From Clostridiales bacterium (GTDB lineage Bacteria > Bacillota > Clostridia > Lachnospirales > Lachnospiraceae), in assembly GCA_012520655.1 (NCBI GenBank), contig JAAYNW010000008.1, positions 1 through 64,000 on the forward strand: DNA of 64,000 nt, given 5' to 3'. The notes under the pieces are model-generated. The model saw nothing but the letters and a program-made list of their open reading frames with translations. It did not search any database and had not been told where the DNA came from. A program made the translations under genes and the position numbers. Each line of letters begins with the position of its first letter. Positions within the stretch are counted from its first letter, which is position 1. Positions 25,585-61,925 of the stretch are shown here, one piece after another.

Positions 25585-25600
25585 TGTTTCACGTGAAACA
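25585..25600. other. parS: parS site 1 (Spo0J/ParB centromere)
   Basis: Perfect 16-bp palindrome TGTTTCACGTGAAACA, one mismatch from B. subtilis-type TGTTCCACGTGAAACA, just upstream of parAB. Confidence 0.92.
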
Positions 25601-25634: not shown

Positions 25635-25650
25635 TGTTTCACGTGAAACA
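25635..25650. other. parS: parS site 2 (Spo0J/ParB centromere)
   Basis: Second perfect TGTTTCACGTGAAACA, exactly 50 bp downstream of the first. Confidence 0.92.
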
Positions 25651-25823: not shown

Positions 25824-26591
25824 ATGGGAAGAACAATTGCAGTCGCAAATCAAAAGGGTGGTGTTGGAAAAACAACAACATCTATTAATTTATCTGCTTC
25901 GCTAGCGGAAAAAGGAAAAAAAGTATTGGTTATAGATACTGATCCTCAGGGAAATACAACCAGCGGATTTGGTATAAACAAGAATGAATTGGATAATACA
26001 GTATATGAATTGATATTGGGAGAATGTTCTATACAAGAATGTATAATAAAAAATATTGTTCCGGGGGTATCTATTATACCTTCAAATGTAAATCTTGCAG
26101 CAACAGAAATTGAACTAATAGGAGTAGAAAAAAAAGAGTTTATATTAAGAAATGAAGTGGATTGGGTTAAAGATCAATATGATTATATTATAATAGACTG
26201 TCCTCCTTCCCTTAATATGTTGACAATTAATGCGATGACGACTGCGGATTCAGTATTAGTTCCGATTCAATGTGAGTATTATGCGTTGGAAGGATTAAGT
26301 CAATTAATACATACTGTTAATTTGGTAAAAGAAAGATTGAATCCGGATTTAGAGATAGAGGGAATTGTTTTTACAATGTATGATTCCAGAACAAATCTTT
26401 CCATGCAGGTAGTCGAAAATGTTAAAAACCATTTGAAGCAAAATATTTATAAAACTGTTATTCCAAGAAATATTCGTTTAGCTGAGGCACCAAGTTATGG
26501 CATGCCAATAAACATGTATGATGCTAAATCGGCCGGTGCCGAAGCATATTTATTACTTGCAGATGAAGTTATTAATAGAAAGGATATATAA
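25824..26591 (+). CDS. parA: Chromosome-partitioning ATPase ParA/Soj
   Basis: GRTIAVANQKGGVGKTTTSINLSASLAEKGKKVLVIDTDPQGNTTSGFG. Confidence 0.96.
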   Translation: MGRTIAVANQKGGVGKTTTSINLSASLAEKGKKVLVIDTDPQGNTTSGFGINKNELDNTVYELILGECSIQECIIKNIVPGVSIIPSNVNLAATEIELIGVEKKEFILRNEVDWVKDQYDYIIIDCPPSLNMLTINAMTTADSVLVPIQCEYYALEGLSQLIHTVNLVKERLNPDLEIEGIVFTMYDSRTNLSMQVVENVKNHLKQNIYKTVIPRNIRLAEAPSYGMPINMYDAKSAGAEAYLLLADEVINRKDI

Positions 26592-26593
26592 CT

Positions 26594-27496
26594 ATGGCGG
26601 CGAGAGGATTAGGTAAGGGACTTGATGCTTTAATACCGAGTGGGGTAGATACAAAGCAAAAAAAAGAAACATCCAAGAATGAAAAGAATGAGAATGCAGT
26701 AAATGAAAGTAACTCAGAAACATTAGTGAAGATTACAATGGTTGAGCCGAATAGAGAACAGCCAAGAAAAAATTTCGATGAAGATGCATTATTGGAATTG
26801 GCCGAATCAATAAAGCAATTTGGTTTGTTGCAGCCCATTCTTGTTCAGGATAGAAAGACATATTATGAAATAATTGCCGGTGAAAGAAGATGGCGCGCTG
26901 CTAAAATGGCAGGATTAAAAGAGGTACCGGTTATCATAAGAAATCTAACCGATCAAGAAATAGTGGAAATTTCTTTAATTGAGAATATTCAAAGAGAAGA
27001 CTTGAATCCGATTGAAGAAGCCTTGGCATATAAAAGATTACTGACAGAGTTCAATCTCAAACAAGATGAAGTAGCGGAAAGAGTATCTAAGAGCAGAACA
27101 GCCGTGACGAATTCCATGCGTTTGTTAAAGCTTTGCGATGAAGTACAGCAAATGATTATTAATGATATGATTTCAACAGGACATGCCAGAGCACTTATTC
27201 CAATAGAAGATTCGGAGCAGCAATACACAATAGCGCAGAAAATCTTTGATGAAAAGTTAAGCGTACGCGATGTGGAAAAACTGGTAAAAGATATTAATAA
27301 ACCGGCCAAGCCTAAAAAAATTGTACAAACTGATAAAAATCTGGAGGTAATCTATCAGGATATAGAAGAAAAACTGAAACAAGCTCTCAGTACAAAAGTA
27401 ACTATCTCTTCTAAAGGTCAAGGGATTGGTAAAATTGAAATTGAATTCTATAATCACGACGATTTGGAAAAAATTACAGATAAATTAACACATTGA
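26594..27496 (+). CDS. parB: Chromosome-partitioning protein ParB/Spo0J
   Basis: GLGKGLDALIP; NREQPRKNFDEDALLELAESIKQFGLLQPILV; AGERRWRAAKMAGLKEVPVI; VAERVSKSRTAVTNSMRLLKL. Confidence 0.96.
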   Translation: MAARGLGKGLDALIPSGVDTKQKKETSKNEKNENAVNESNSETLVKITMVEPNREQPRKNFDEDALLELAESIKQFGLLQPILVQDRKTYYEIIAGERRWRAAKMAGLKEVPVIIRNLTDQEIVEISLIENIQREDLNPIEEALAYKRLLTEFNLKQDEVAERVSKSRTAVTNSMRLLKLCDEVQQMIINDMISTGHARALIPIEDSEQQYTIAQKIFDEKLSVRDVEKLVKDINKPAKPKKIVQTDKNLEVIYQDIEEKLKQALSTKVTISSKGQGIGKIEIEFYNHDDLEKITDKLTH

Positions 27497-29192: not shown

Positions 29193-30470
29193 ATGATCGA
29201 TATTAAATTTTTGAGAGAGAATCCGGAAATCGTAAAGGAGAATATCAGGAAAAAATTTCAGGACAATAAACTCAGTCTGGTGGACGAAGTAATTGCTCTC
29301 GATCTGGAAAGCAGAAAGACACAGCAGGAGGCGGACGAATTAAGAGCGAACCGTAATAAAGTATCAAAAGAAATCGGAACGTTAATGGCACAAGGGAAAA
29401 AAGAAGAAGCCGAGGATAAAAAAAGGGAAGTTGCAGTCGGTGCAAAACGCCTTGCGGAATTGGAAGAAAAAGAAAAGGAATTGGAAGAAAAAATAACTAA
29501 AGTAATGATGTCAATTCCTAATATTATCGATCCCACTGTTCCTATCGGGAAAGATGATACAGAAAATGTGGAAATAAAAAAATATGGTGAACCTGTATTT
29601 CCCGATTTTGAGATTCCTTATCATACGGAAATCATGGAAAAGTTAAATGGAATTGACTTGGACAGCGCGAGAAAGGTTGCAGGTAATGGTTTTTATTATT
29701 TGATGGGAGATATTGCGAGACTACATTCCGCAGTTATTTCTTACGCACGTGATTTTATGATTGATAGAGGATTTACCTATTGTATTCCACCATTTATGAT
29801 TCGAAGCAATGTTGTAACGGGAGTCATGAGTTTTTCTGAAATGGAAGCGATGATGTATAAAATTGAAGGAGAAGATTTGTATTTAATCGGAACATCGGAG
29901 CATTCTATGATAGGTAAATTTATCGATACTATCGTTTCTGAAGAAGAGCTTCCAAAGACGCTTACAAGCTACTCTCCTTGTTTCAGAAAAGAAAAAGGTG
30001 CACATGGCTTGGAAGAACGTGGAGTATACAGAATCCATCAATTCGAGAAACAGGAAATGGTTGTTGTGTGTAAGCCTGAAGAATCACCTATGTGGTTTGA
30101 AAAATTATGGCAGAATACAGTGGATTTATTCCGCTCCATGGATATTCCGGTAAGAACAATTGAATGCTGCTCCGGCGATTTGGCAGATTTAAAAGTAAAG
30201 TCCTACGATGTGGAAGCCTGGTCACCGAGACAGAAAAAATATTTTGAAGTAGGAAGCTGCTCCAATTTAGGAGACGCTCAGGCAAGAAGATTAAAAATTC
30301 GTGTAAACGGAGAAAACGGAAAGTACTTCGCGCATACATTAAATAATACGGTAGTCGCCCCTCCGAGAATGTTAATTGCATTTTTAGAGAATAATCTTCA
30401 AGAGGACGGTTCCATAAGAATTCCGGAAGTATTATGGCCTTACATGGGCGGTAAAAAAGTTATAAAATAG
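29193..30470 (+). CDS. serS: Seryl-tRNA synthetase
   Basis: MIDIKFLRENPEIVKENIRKKF; class II motif 2 SPCFRKEKGAHG..GVYRIHQFEKQEMVV; motif 3 NNTVVAPPRMLIAFLENNLQEDGSIRIPEVLWPYMGG. Confidence 0.97.
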   Translation: MIDIKFLRENPEIVKENIRKKFQDNKLSLVDEVIALDLESRKTQQEADELRANRNKVSKEIGTLMAQGKKEEAEDKKREVAVGAKRLAELEEKEKELEEKITKVMMSIPNIIDPTVPIGKDDTENVEIKKYGEPVFPDFEIPYHTEIMEKLNGIDLDSARKVAGNGFYYLMGDIARLHSAVISYARDFMIDRGFTYCIPPFMIRSNVVTGVMSFSEMEAMMYKIEGEDLYLIGTSEHSMIGKFIDTIVSEEELPKTLTSYSPCFRKEKGAHGLEERGVYRIHQFEKQEMVVVCKPEESPMWFEKLWQNTVDLFRSMDIPVRTIECCSGDLADLKVKSYDVEAWSPRQKKYFEVGSCSNLGDAQARRLKIRVNGENGKYFAHTLNNTVVAPPRMLIAFLENNLQEDGSIRIPEVLWPYMGGKKVIK

Positions 30471-55821: not shown

Positions 55822-55974
55822 AAGTCCTCCATCCCTATTCTTGCCTTACCTGATAAATTCTATTATGCAAAGACCACCAAAAGTGGCTCTTGTTTTTCCC
55901 TTTGAGATTATTTATGATAAAGATATTATATAAACACCGTGTTGATTTTACAATCGACAGTTGGTTTTCAGACG

Positions 55975-55995
55975 ATGATTTTACAACAAAATCAT
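55975..55995. promoter_or_regulatory. Candidate TetR operator
   Basis: ATGATTTT-ACAAC-AAAATCAT perfect 8-bp inverted repeat upstream of a TetR gene and divergent from the ABC ATPase. Confidence 0.5.
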
Positions 55996-56064
55996 ATTTA
56001 AATGTCGGTTTTGAAGCATATGACGCATAGCTTGTTTGAATTCAGCACAGAAAGGGGAGTACTT

Positions 56065-56664
56065 ATGAAAAACATGAAACAGAGCAGAAAGACACGTTAC
56101 ACACAAATGGCTTTACAGGACAGTTTGGTAGAGCTTATGAAGCAAAAGCCGATTGCTAAGATAACGATAAAAGAGCTTTGCGAAAACGCGGATATTAATC
56201 GTACAACCTTCTATGCGCATTATACCGATCAATATGATCTGCTTCAAAAAATGGAGGAGGAATGTCTTTCTTTTGCAAGAGAGGCTATTTCCAATCTTAT
56301 TGGAGAAAAAGATCAAAATGAAATGATGAAACTTCTGGAAGAGGTTTTTGAATATATTATTGACAATAGAAATCATATTCGGATACTTATGAGCGAACAG
56401 GGTGATATCAATTTTCAAAAACAGCTATTTGCAATGATATATGAATCCTGTGGCATATCGCCATATCCGGATAAGAATGTCGATATGGGAACGAAGGAAT
56501 ATTATTTTATCTATGCGGTATCCGGAAGCGTAGGACTGCTCCAGCATTGGTTGAAGGATGACGTGATGAAACCAGCCAAGGAAATGGCTGAAACGATCTA
56601 TCGAATGGCTTGTTTTACACAGTTTACCGGGTGTTGTACCGTACAGTTGTCGGAAGACAGGTGA
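56065..56664 (+). CDS. TetR/AcrR family transcriptional regulator
   Basis: RYTQMALQDSLVELMKQKPIAKITIKELCENADINRTTFYAHYTDQYDLL; ORF opens at 56002, MKNMKQSRKTRYTQ at 56065 more likely. Confidence 0.92.
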   Translation: MKNMKQSRKTRYTQMALQDSLVELMKQKPIAKITIKELCENADINRTTFYAHYTDQYDLLQKMEEECLSFAREAISNLIGEKDQNEMMKLLEEVFEYIIDNRNHIRILMSEQGDINFQKQLFAMIYESCGISPYPDKNVDMGTKEYYFIYAVSGSVGLLQHWLKDDVMKPAKEMAETIYRMACFTQFTGCCTVQLSEDR

Positions 56665-56733: not shown

Positions 56734-56794
56734 AGTACCAAGTAAACTTTAATACGTCAAAGTACCAAGTAAACTGCTATACTTTTACTTGACA
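56734..56794 (+). promoter_or_regulatory. Repeat operator and -35 region upstream of the decarboxylase operon
   Basis: 15-bp direct repeat AGTACCAAGTAAACT at 56734-56748 and 56761-56775; inverted CAAGTAAA (56766-56773) / TTTACTTG (56784-56791); TTGACA at 56789-56794. Confidence 0.65.
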
Positions 56795-56977
56795 AATAAG
56801 AGGTCAGGATATTATTATAGTTATAACAAATATATTTATATTGATATTTAATTCCGGTTGGACATATATTTTATAATAAATATATGTTTTCAAGATTTAG
56901 TTAGCTTAGGGTGGAGGCTTGGCGAAAGTTGTCTACTCTTTTATTATGTTAATACGTATGAAAGGAGTTGTAATTTT

Positions 56978-58372
56978 ATGAAAGTACACTTTACAGAAAC
57001 AGTATTGCGCGATGCAAACCAATCTCTTATCGCAACTCGTATGCCATTTTCCGATTATGAAGGAATATTAGAAGCGTTGGACAATGCCGGCTATTATTCT
57101 CTTGAATGTTGGGGTGGTGCAACCTTTGATTCCTGTCTTCGCTATTTGGGAGAAGACCCGTGGGAAAGACTTAGAAAAATAAAAGCAAAGGTAAAAAATA
57201 CAAAGTTGCAAATGCTTTTAAGGGGTCAGAACATACTCGGTTATAAGCATTATCCTGATGACGTAGTCAGAAAGTTCGTCGCTCGTGCAGTACAGAACGG
57301 AATAGATATATTGCGCATCTTTGATGCCTTGAATGATTTTCGAAATATCGAGGTAGCAATAGATGAAACGTTAAAGCAGGGTGCACATGCACAAGGGTGT
57401 ATCTGTTATACTACAAGTCCTATCCATAATTTGGACAAATATGCTACTATGGGAAAACAGTTGGAAGCGCTCGGAGTGAATTCTATTTGCATTAAAGATA
57501 TGGCTGGAATTATGGGACCCCAGGAAGCTTATGACTTAATAAAAGCGTTGAAGAGCAGTGTGAGTGTTCCTGTCTTTTTACATACTCATTCCACAACAGG
57601 ACTGGGTCCTATAACATATGCGAAAGCAATAGAGGCTGGCTGCGACGGAATTGATACGGCAATTTCTTCTTTTTCGGGAGGGACTTCACAGCCGGCGACA
57701 GAATCTTTGAATTATGCTGTTAAGCAAATGGGATATGAAACCGGTTTGAATGAGAAAGTGTTAAAAGAGATCAATGATTTCTTTAAGCCTTTAAAGGCAA
57801 AATATGTAGATTCCGGTTTGTTGGATTCATTTGTCATGGGAACGGAAACGGATGCCTTGGTATATCAGGTTCCGGGCGGTATGTTGTCCAATTTAATTGC
57901 GCAGCTGAAAGAGCAGAACGCCAGCGATAGACTGGAAGAGGTTTTAGCTGAAACACCGAAGGTAAGAAAAGATCTGGGATATCCCCCTCTTGTTACTCCT
58001 ATGAGTCAAATGGTCGGTGTGCAGGCGGCGATTAATGTGCTTACCGGCAAACGTTACGGGAATGTATCAAAAGAGATAAAGTCCTACCTCAGAGGAGAAT
58101 ACGGTCAGGCACCTGGTGAAGTAAATCAAGATCTTGTTCATAAAGTATTAGGAGAAGAGAAACCGATCACAATCCGCTTTGCCGATACCTTGGAGCCGGA
58201 GTTTGAGAAGATAAAGGCAGAACTGGGAAGCAAAGCCCGTAATGACGAGGATGTCCTTTCTTATATCGTATTTCCACAGATTGCGGAGAAGTTTTTTAAA
58301 GAGCGGGAAGAAAGAGAAAGCAGAACAGTGACTTATTCTATTATTAAGAAACAGGAGGATCCTATTGTATGA
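56978..58372 (+). CDS. Oxaloacetate decarboxylase alpha / pyruvate carboxylase subunit B-type carboxyltransferase (no biotin domain)
   Basis: VHFTETVLRDANQSLIATRMPFSDYEGILEALDNAGYYSLECWGGATFDSCLRYLGEDPWERLR; RBS AAAGGAG before ATG 56978. Confidence 0.94.
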   Translation: MKVHFTETVLRDANQSLIATRMPFSDYEGILEALDNAGYYSLECWGGATFDSCLRYLGEDPWERLRKIKAKVKNTKLQMLLRGQNILGYKHYPDDVVRKFVARAVQNGIDILRIFDALNDFRNIEVAIDETLKQGAHAQGCICYTTSPIHNLDKYATMGKQLEALGVNSICIKDMAGIMGPQEAYDLIKALKSSVSVPVFLHTHSTTGLGPITYAKAIEAGCDGIDTAISSFSGGTSQPATESLNYAVKQMGYETGLNEKVLKEINDFFKPLKAKYVDSGLLDSFVMGTETDALVYQVPGGMLSNLIAQLKEQNASDRLEEVLAETPKVRKDLGYPPLVTPMSQMVGVQAAINVLTGKRYGNVSKEIKSYLRGEYGQAPGEVNQDLVHKVLGEEKPITIRFADTLEPEFEKIKAELGSKARNDEDVLSYIVFPQIAEKFFKEREERESRTVTYSIIKKQEDPIV

Positions 58373-58686
58373 CCGTGTGGGAAGGCATTTTAGTAGCAAT
58401 ATTCTGTATATCGATGGTCTTTTTTGTTCTCATAGGATTGAGCCTGCTAATCAAAGGATTTAGTTTTATTCTGGGTATATTTTCAAGTCAAATGAAACAA
58501 GACACGACTCCTGTACCGGCTCAGTCTGAAACTGTCTTGGAAAATGAACTGTCATTGGGGATTCTCAAGCTGAAGGATGTGGACGAGCCGACGGCAGCCA
58601 TGATTATGGCGATTGTCAGTGATGAATCAGGAATTCCTCTGTCAGAGCTTTGTTTTAAATCCATAAAATTATTACGACAAGACTAA
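58369..58686 (+). CDS. OadG-like gamma subunit
   Basis: N-terminal TM small protein between the alpha and biotin-carrier genes of the operon; overlaps the alpha stop by 4 nt. Confidence 0.75.
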   Translation: MTVWEGILVAIFCISMVFFVLIGLSLLIKGFSFILGIFSSQMKQDTTPVPAQSETVLENELSLGILKLKDVDEPTAAMIMAIVSDESGIPLSELCFKSIKLLRQD

Positions 58687-58714
58687 TGATTCTCAAGGAA
58701 TGGAGGAAAGATTG

Positions 58715-59101
58715 ATGATATATGTTGTGAGAATTAATGATAAGGAATATGAAGTTGAAGTGGAGAGAGGGCAGGCAAATCTTGTGAAGACAACGGAAGT
58801 TACAGCACATGAACCGGTGGCTGTTGTTCCTCAGCCTGCAGCCCCGGCAAGTGAAAAAGCAGCGCCGGTGCAAGCGGCATCTGCCCCGGCAGATTCTGTG
58901 ACAGCTCCTATGCCAGGAGTGGTCGTGGATATAAAGGTGACTTCCGGCAAAAGCGTAAAGCGAGGAGAGGTTTTGTTGATTTTGGAAGCTATGAAAATGG
59001 AAAATGAAGTGGTTGCACCTGCCGACGGAGTTGTCGGCCAGATATTTGTTTCAAAAGGAGCATCTGTGGCTGCCGGCGATCCATTAATTTCCATACAGTA
59101 A
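58715..59101 (+). CDS. Biotin/lipoyl carrier protein
   Basis: Ala/Pro-rich linker and biotinyl motif LILEAMKMENEV; start ATG 58715 after GGAGGA. Confidence 0.94.
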   Translation: MIYVVRINDKEYEVEVERGQANLVKTTEVTAHEPVAVVPQPAAPASEKAAPVQAASAPADSVTAPMPGVVVDIKVTSGKSVKRGEVLLILEAMKMENEVVAPADGVVGQIFVSKGASVAAGDPLISIQ

Positions 59102-59113
59102 GGAGGAATGACT

Positions 59114-60250
59114 ATGTTTATTGAGGCCCTGCATGAAATATGGAAAACATCCGGTTTTATGGCACTTACATGGCAGCACGTAGTGATGATTATAGTTGCT
59201 TGCGTTTTGATTTATCTTGCTATTGTCAAGAAGTTTGAGCCATTATTGTTACTGCCGATTGCCTTTGGCGTATTGCTTGCAAATCTTCCGCTAGCAGGAT
59301 TGATGGCAGAGCCGGCAAGCGCTTCTGAAGCGGGAGGCTTGCTTTATTATTTATATTTAGGAGTAAAAAAAGGTATTTATCCTTCTTTGATTTTTTTGGG
59401 CATAGGAGCTATGACAGATTTCGGACCTTTGATTGCCAGACCAAGCAGCTTACTTCTTGGTGCAGGTGCACAGTTCGGTATTTGCATTGCCTTTGTTGTA
59501 GCGGTTGCGCTTGGGTTCGCACCGGAGGAGGCAGCATCTATAGCTATTATTGGCGGGGCAGACGGGCCGACAGCTATTTTCCTGACAACAAGATTGGCAC
59601 CTGAGTTGTTACCGGCCATAGCCATTGCCGCGTATTCTTATATGGCGCTTATTCCAATGATTCAGCCTCCTATTATGAAGGCTTTAACTACGAAAAAAGA
59701 AAGAGAAATAGAAATGTCTCAGCTGCGGGAAGTATCAAAGTTGGAAAAGATATGCTTTCCTATTGTAGTTACCATTGTGTGCGTGCTTCTTTTGCCTTCT
59801 GTTGCGCCGCTTATTGGTATGTTGATGCTGGGAAATCTGTTCCGTGAATCAGGCGTTGTTGAGCGTTTGTCCAATACGGCGCAAAATGCTTTGATTAATA
59901 TAGTTACGATATTCTTAGGCGTTACTGTTGGAGCCACTGCTGTAGCAGAGAATTTCTTGAGACCTGAAACTCTGAAAATAATCGGGCTTGGATTGATGGC
60001 TTTTATCTTTAGTACGGTAGGCGGACTTCTTTTAGGAAAATTAATGTGTTGGCTGACAAAGGGTAAGATTAATCCGTTGATTGGTTCGGCAGGAGTGTCG
60101 GCAGTACCTATGGCGGCACGAGTAGCACAGATAGAAGGACAAAAAGCTAATCCGGCGAATTTCTTATTAATGCATGCAATGGGGCCGAACGTAGCAGGTG
60201 TAATTGGCTCGGCAGTGGCGGCAGGTATTCTACTGTCTTTGTTCGGTTAA
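59114..60250 (+). CDS. Na+-translocating decarboxylase beta subunit (OadB/GcdB-like)
   Basis: GIGAMTDFGPLIARPSSLLLGAGAQFGI...IIGGADGPTAIFLTTRLAPELL...; RBS AGGAGG favours ATG 59114. Confidence 0.94.
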   Translation: MFIEALHEIWKTSGFMALTWQHVVMIIVACVLIYLAIVKKFEPLLLLPIAFGVLLANLPLAGLMAEPASASEAGGLLYYLYLGVKKGIYPSLIFLGIGAMTDFGPLIARPSSLLLGAGAQFGICIAFVVAVALGFAPEEAASIAIIGGADGPTAIFLTTRLAPELLPAIAIAAYSYMALIPMIQPPIMKALTTKKEREIEMSQLREVSKLEKICFPIVVTIVCVLLLPSVAPLIGMLMLGNLFRESGVVERLSNTAQNALINIVTIFLGVTVGATAVAENFLRPETLKIIGLGLMAFIFSTVGGLLLGKLMCWLTKGKINPLIGSAGVSAVPMAARVAQIEGQKANPANFLLMHAMGPNVAGVIGSAVAAGILLSLFG

Positions 60251-61238: not shown

Positions 61239-61925
61239 ATGAAAAAGATAGTTCGGCAAAATCTTGTAGAAGAATATTACAATCACTTTCCTTTAACGGA
61301 TTTTTTTAATTTTGATATAACACCATATGCTTCGGTTGTTCAATTCGAAAGCGGCGAAATGATAATGCAGGAGGGGACCGCCCCTGCATATCTATATTAT
61401 CTAATTAACGGCAGAGCCAAATTGCTTCTGTCGCATGATAATGGACGTATGTCTCTAATTAATTTTTTAAATGCTCCTTGCTTTATCGGGGAAATGGAAT
61501 TAATCGGGGCACAAAATATGTCAAATGGAGTTACAGCCATTACAATATGTACCTGCTATGCAATAAACATAAACAGTTCCAGGAACAAAATACTGAAAGA
61601 TGTCAAATTTTTGAGCCACCTATGCCTTTTTCTTGGTCAAAAGGCAATAGGAAACACATACAATTACTCCCGTAATCAGTCTTACCCTTTGGATGTGCGT
61701 TTGGCAAATTTTATTTTACTCACTGCACAGAATGGGCATTATAGAGAGAAGCATACAGAATCGTCAGAATTCTTGGGGGTTACATATCGGCATCTTCTAT
61801 ATGTCCTGGCTGATTTTGTAAAGCGAGGCATACTTATAAAAACAAATAGTGGTTATTATATAAATGACGTGACCTATTTACAAAAATTAGCTAATTACGA
61901 AACTGATGTGATCAAAGTAACATGA
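61239..61925 (+). CDS. Crp/Fnr family transcriptional regulator (YeiL-like)
   Basis: cNMP-binding-like fold (FESGEMIMQEGTAPAYLYYLINGRAKLLLSHDNGRMSLINFL) and HTH (ESSEFLGVTYRHLLYVLADFVKRGIL). Confidence 0.85.
   Translation: MKKIVRQNLVEEYYNHFPLTDFFNFDITPYASVVQFESGEMIMQEGTAPAYLYYLINGRAKLLLSHDNGRMSLINFLNAPCFIGEMELIGAQNMSNGVTAITICTCYAININSSRNKILKDVKFLSHLCLFLGQKAIGNTYNYSRNQSYPLDVRLANFILLTAQNGHYREKHTESSEFLGVTYRHLLYVLADFVKRGILIKTNSGYYINDVTYLQKLANYETDVIKVT

Follow-up and report, generated by a model that had tools for sequence, protein, structure and literature searches.

Positions 56734-56977 of the window, the whole 64,000-nucleotide stretch of DNA analysed here, probably form a control region with two layers, in which a protein that would bind paired repeats at the promoter is combined with a Na+-I riboswitch in the leader of a Na+-pumping oxaloacetate decarboxylase (OAD) operon. 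Membership of the leader in the Na+-I class is supported by its match in sequence and structure, and switching by Na+ would follow by analogy with the published class. An earlier note on this DNA had described the repeat and the promoter but considered that no regulator was obvious; that statement no longer holds, as a Na+-I riboswitch and a predicted terminator sit between the promoter and oadA.

Paired repeats at the promoter of a Na+-pumping decarboxylase operon

The elements of the promoter region and the genes that follow are:

56734-56748, + strand: direct repeat copy 1, AGTACCAAGTAAACT, a putative transcription-factor site
56761-56775, + strand: direct repeat copy 2, AGTACCAAGTAAACT, a putative transcription-factor site 27 bp downstream of copy 1
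56784-56791, - strand: TTTACTTG, inverted copy of CAAGTAAA, overlapping the -35 element and weak on its own
56789-56818, + strand: predicted sigma-70-type promoter TTGACA-18-TATTAT, 11 of 12 consensus matches
56960-56968, + strand: Shine-Dalgarno-like GAAAGGAGT, preceding the oadA start codon at 56978
56978-58372, + strand: oadA, oxaloacetate decarboxylase carboxyltransferase subunit (HMGL-like plus PYC_OADA)
58369-58686, + strand: OAD gamma subunit (PF04277)
58700-59101, + strand: biotin carrier protein (PF00364)
59108-60250, + strand: Na+-transporting OAD beta subunit (PF03977, E = 2.4e-162)

Judged by the Pfam matches of its genes (OadA/gamma/BCCP/beta), oadA-gamma-BCCP-beta is a Na+-pumping oxaloacetate decarboxylase operon. 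The earlier description of a near-consensus promoter and a non-random, operator-like repeat in front of such an operon is supported. A second and more typical oadA is present on contig C89 of the same genome. The nearest OadA proteins found were those of G473 (84%) and G791 (78%), followed by G261, G332 and G265 (60-65%); within the genus, none of the remaining 15 genomes has an OadA closer than 53-55% to that of the window, so the operon is absent or replaced there.

Elsewhere in the window, two perfect copies of the ParB/Spo0J binding site parS, TGTTTCACGTGAAACA (25585-25600 and 25635-25650), lie directly upstream of parA (25824-26591) and parB (26594-27496), which suggests an origin-proximal region.

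The 15-bp repeat with its 27-bp period, the inverted half and the TTGACA/TATTAT elements are exactly as first reported, in both sequence and coordinates. Each copy of the repeat is extended by nnnATAC. Within the second copy, CAAGTAAA (56766-56773) forms an inverted repeat with TTTACTTG (56784-56791), the two 8-bp arms matching perfectly across a gap of 10 bp and the right arm overlapping TTGACA (56789-56794); the -10 element TATTAT is found at 56813-56818, after a spacer of 18 bp. The inverted repeat is unremarkable by itself, with many comparable ones in the same AT-rich region. As for the direct repeat, no perfect repeat of at least 15 bp with a period up to 100 arose in 60 simulated windows, and local simulations gave a perfect repeat of at least 15 bp with a period up to 60 once in 3000. 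The repeat thus exceeds chance in simulation and, as an operator would, sits at the promoter. A 16-bp perfect direct repeat with a 21-bp period, GGAATTGGAAGAAAAA, also occurs at 29456-29492 of the window; its period is divisible by three, which suggests that it falls within a coding sequence.

The earlier note had proposed cooperative repression (or activation) at the repeats; that they are operators of a dedicated repressor which binds cooperatively and covers the -35 element is a model that we consider rather unlikely. In its favour, a near-consensus promoter can do without an activator, and the -35 is overlapped by the inverted half. However, this half is weak on its own and tandem direct repeats ending beside the -35 fit activators equally well; at the corresponding promoters of two congeners, G008 and G014, TTGACA lies downstream of the end of the proximal repeat.

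A probable Na+-I riboswitch aptamer in the leader

The leader contains the following elements:

56856-56920, + strand: Na+-I (DUF1646) riboswitch aptamer (Rfam RF03071, 38.4 bits)
56862-56871/56878-56887, + strand: aptamer stem P1, 10 bp, perfect
56887-56897, + strand: aptamer conserved segment UUUCAAGAUUU (RF03071 alignment)
56903-56907/56915-56919, + strand: aptamer stem P2 with loop AGGGUGG (RF03071 alignment)
56908-56947, + strand: predicted intrinsic terminator (expression platform), hairpin 56908-56939 followed by UUUUAUUAU, which would exclude P2

Scanning of the leader against Rfam returned a single match, RF03071, on the coding strand between the promoter and oadA, and this is the sole match to the family in the whole genome. 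Its score of 38.4 bits falls 2.1 bits short of the gathering score of 40.5, with a genome-wide E of 2.2e-6 (1.9e-6 in the leader scan and 5.3e-7 when aligned). The strongly conserved nucleotides GGUUGG, UUUCAAGA and GGGUGG are all intact, and both stems of the family, P1 and P2, are present, P2 having 5 bp including one G-U and two non-standard pairs relative to the RF03071 model. The score below the cut-off is probably due to the long AU-rich P1 hairpin and the short P2 variant; the shorter P2 loop is also found in the relatives in G055.

The window leader has in common with the Na+-I class (DUF1646 motif, RF03071) the GGUUGG, UUUCAAGAUUU and GGGUG segments and the two stems. It also has in common the position in the leader of a sodium-related gene, here oadA-gamma-BCCP-beta, and a terminator, here predicted, that competes with P2 (PMC9337991). 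It differs from the class in its lower score, longer AU-rich P1 hairpin, short P2 and weaker terminator, and in the additional repeat element upstream of the promoter.

A predicted terminator that would compete with P2

In the computed fold, the hairpin at 56908-56939 (AGGGUGGA...UCUACUCU, -12.1 kcal/mol) is followed by UUUUAUUAU. Its left arm starts in the P2 loop and takes up the 3' strand of P2, so aptamer and terminator are predicted to be mutually exclusive. Folding of the full leader gave -23.4 kcal/mol with the terminator, compared with -16.1 kcal/mol when P2 was enforced, and in these computed folds the nascent RNA, being shorter, adopts P2, whereas the terminator prevails once the leader is complete. 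The competition between terminator and P2 seen in ON switches of RF03071 is thus reproduced by the computed fold. The arrangement of aptamer and terminator is visible in most of the relatives examined, although the window terminator is weaker than most of theirs (-12 versus -17 to -22 kcal/mol, the energies at L182, L181, L154 and L156 not being meaningful as the hairpin was clipped there at an early U-run) and its U-run is interrupted.

Within the accounts given in PMC9337991, Na+-I riboswitches act as ON switches through mutual exclusion of P2 and terminator, and the layout published for the kefB representative is the same as that of the window leader. The same source records Na+-I riboswitches on oxaloacetate decarboxylase genes, including pycB leaders, and the riboswitch on the decarboxylase operon of the window is a further case of this pairing. 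In Acetivibrio cellulolyticus a Na+ riboswitch likewise precedes an oxaloacetate decarboxylase gene, pycB (PMC9337991, Extended Data Fig. 6); this is a different organism, and the account of it given there describes no upstream repeats.

The riboswitch in relatives

The Na+-I riboswitch is rare in the group, being detected in 4 of 98 relatives and in 23 of 391 genomes of the class under strict filters by which weak matches can be lost. G791 carries a matching aptamer, exactly at the Rfam cut-off, directly upstream of oadA, and G473 carries one before a DUF1646-type gene adjoining its OAD operon. The oadA leader of G473 itself (L194, minus strand, just above 12208) contains, read by eye, a diverged aptamer copy in which the core has UUUGAGAA in place of UUUCAAGA, with GGUUG, P2 and GGGUGG kept; this copy is absent from the Rfam matches at E <= 0.05 and may be a variant whose ligand has changed, or else one in decay. 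In the congeners G008 and G014, a Na+ riboswitch with a strong terminator precedes an operon that includes the gene for the OAD beta subunit.

The repeat layout, not its sequence, recurs within the genus

Searching the genome for AGTACCAAGTAAACT with up to 2 mismatches gave only two further matches, fewer than the reversed-pattern control: one with 1 mismatch at the kdpD/kdpE junction and one with 2 mismatches inside tsaE. Neither is a credible further copy, and a AGTACCAAGTAAACT regulon in this genome was rejected. The exact double repeat was not found in a scan of 84,980 species genomes, and a scan with AAAGTACCAAGTAAACT gave 17 scattered single matches, mostly in unrelated taxa.

Conservation of the repeats in orthologous promoters, on which the operator proposal had been made to depend, was found only in part. 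The sequence is not kept: it is missing from the orthologous promoters examined, which belong to other genera and families with OadA 60-84% identical. The paired layout does recur within the genus, in G008 and weakly in G014. When 21 promoters of Na+ riboswitches were tested for direct repeats (within 150 bp upstream), only those of the window (15/15, period 27) and of G008 (GTACATAATATAGATAA / GTACAAAATATAGATAA, 16/17, period 23) beat all 300 simulations; the repeat of G014 is degenerate and borderline (P = 0.057). In all three promoters the repeat units start with GTAC and the second unit ends shortly upstream of TTGACA. The pattern GTACMWW-gap-GTACMWW-gap-TTGAC was found among 16 genomes of the genus only at these three promoters and, as it was derived from them, only the absence of other matches is informative. 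Five of the best other matches to the G008/G014 repeat all lie within coding sequence. Other genomes of the family also gave short promoter matches, which were discarded as most of them resembled coding or generic promoter sequence; a 19-bp match in G215, beside an apparent T-box leader, was set aside.

A layout that recurs in the genus with different letters fits either a dedicated factor with co-diverging sites or different factors. On these comparisons of sequence, the repeats are probably a transcription-factor operator at the level of the genus. Tandem direct-repeat operators beside the -35 are familiar from activators of the AraC and OmpR types, with periods of about 21 or 10-11 bp. The elements of the window and G008 resemble them in having direct repeats of about 15-17 bp, of which the proximal copy stops close to the -35, but differ in their periods of 23-27 bp, and no such regulator is tied to the site.

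It is also conceivable, if rather unlikely, that the riboswitch alone regulates the operon, the repeats being a functionless trace of a 27-bp tandem duplication or an UP-like promoter context. This would agree with the lack of the repeat sequence in every orthologous promoter examined and in the rest of the genome, and with there being no regulator linked to the repeats. However, the 27-bp units are mismatched at 6 of 27 positions, all within the last 12 (P = 0.003 under random placement), which is a better fit to two 15-bp sites under conservation, separated by an unconstrained spacer, than to an ageing duplication, and G008 has an independent 16/17 repeat at the same position.

Candidate binding proteins

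The TetR-family gene upstream (56065-56664) adjoins the repeats on the same strand, but it is very improbable that its product binds them. In G014 (88%) and G008 (83%) the orthologous genes retain an upstream region of the TGATTTTRCAAC type in places where this OAD operon is missing, the G014 ortholog visibly retaining the divergent ABC gene too, and the dyad ATGATTTT-N5-AAAATCAT and the TGATTTTACAA repeats sit in the ABC/TetR divergent region and are unlike AGTACCAAGTAAACT. TetR was rejected as the repeat-binding regulator on the ground that its orthologs still have a divergent operator region of their own where the operon is missing; none of the other OAD operons examined has a homolog of it alongside, and it seems to go with the divergent ABC transporter. 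The divergent ABC/TetR promoter at 55940-56000 of the window, with ATGATTTT-N5-AAAATCAT and repeated TGATTTTACAA and with similar motifs in G014 and G008, likely holds a TetR operator. The Crp-like gene downstream (61239-61925) was discarded as a candidate, since homologs of it are lacking next to the other OAD operons examined.

Binding by an HxlR-family regulator, with AGTACC as an HxlR-like half-site, is improbable and at most a weak lead. The genome encodes two HxlR proteins; the divergent promoter of one contains AGTACC-N6-GGTACT, which is conserved in G008 and G014, and the other has GGTACTTTAAAGTTCC in its promoter region, conserved in G011. These sites are inverted with short spacing, whereas the repeat of the window is direct and its second half differs from theirs; it lacks an inverted AGTACC/GGTACT dyad with short spacing and has only the hexamer AGTACC in common. 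A literature search on HxlR operators yielded nothing useful.

The first of these dyads (L079, about 1348-1368, G000 contig C89) has the HxlR gene on one side and a divergent heavy-metal P-type ATPase on the other, and is a likely operator of the adjoining HxlR. The GGTACTTTAAAGTTCC of the second (L080, about 1270-1310, G000 contig C65) lies with its flanks between its HxlR gene and an NADH-dehydrogenase-like gene that is divergent from it, and it is GGTACTTTAAAGTTCC together with the flanking bases that is kept in G011.

A probable two-layer control of the decarboxylase operon

In the two-layer arrangement that we favour, a DNA-binding protein would occupy the paired repeats, just ahead of the -35 and in part covering it, and set initiation from TTGACA/TATTAT. 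The transcript would then begin with the Na+-I riboswitch. At low cell Na+, the 3' strand of P2 would be drawn into the terminator hairpin and transcription would stop before oadA, whereas at high cell Na+ the ion would stabilise the aptamer and P2, the terminator would not form and the pump would be made. Export of Na+ by the pump would in turn exert negative feedback on cell Na+. In this scheme we infer Na+ sensing by the window aptamer, termination in the cell and protein binding at the repeats.

More tentatively, with chances that we would put a little short of even, the Na+-pumping decarboxylase operons of the genus may be governed by a two-input gate, composed of an undescribed factor on fast-diverging paired repeats and read-through of the Na+-I riboswitch, such that the pump is made only when a metabolic signal coincides with high cell Na+.

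Taken together, what had been an unexplained operator would be replaced by a concrete Na+ feedback circuit, in which a sodium-sensor RNA acts on a sodium-exporting decarboxylase. Two congeners show the same logic at their decarboxylase operons, most of the relatives searched being without the riboswitch. The identity of the protein reading the paired repeats, which go together with this riboswitch in this genus only, is thereby set apart as a separate question.
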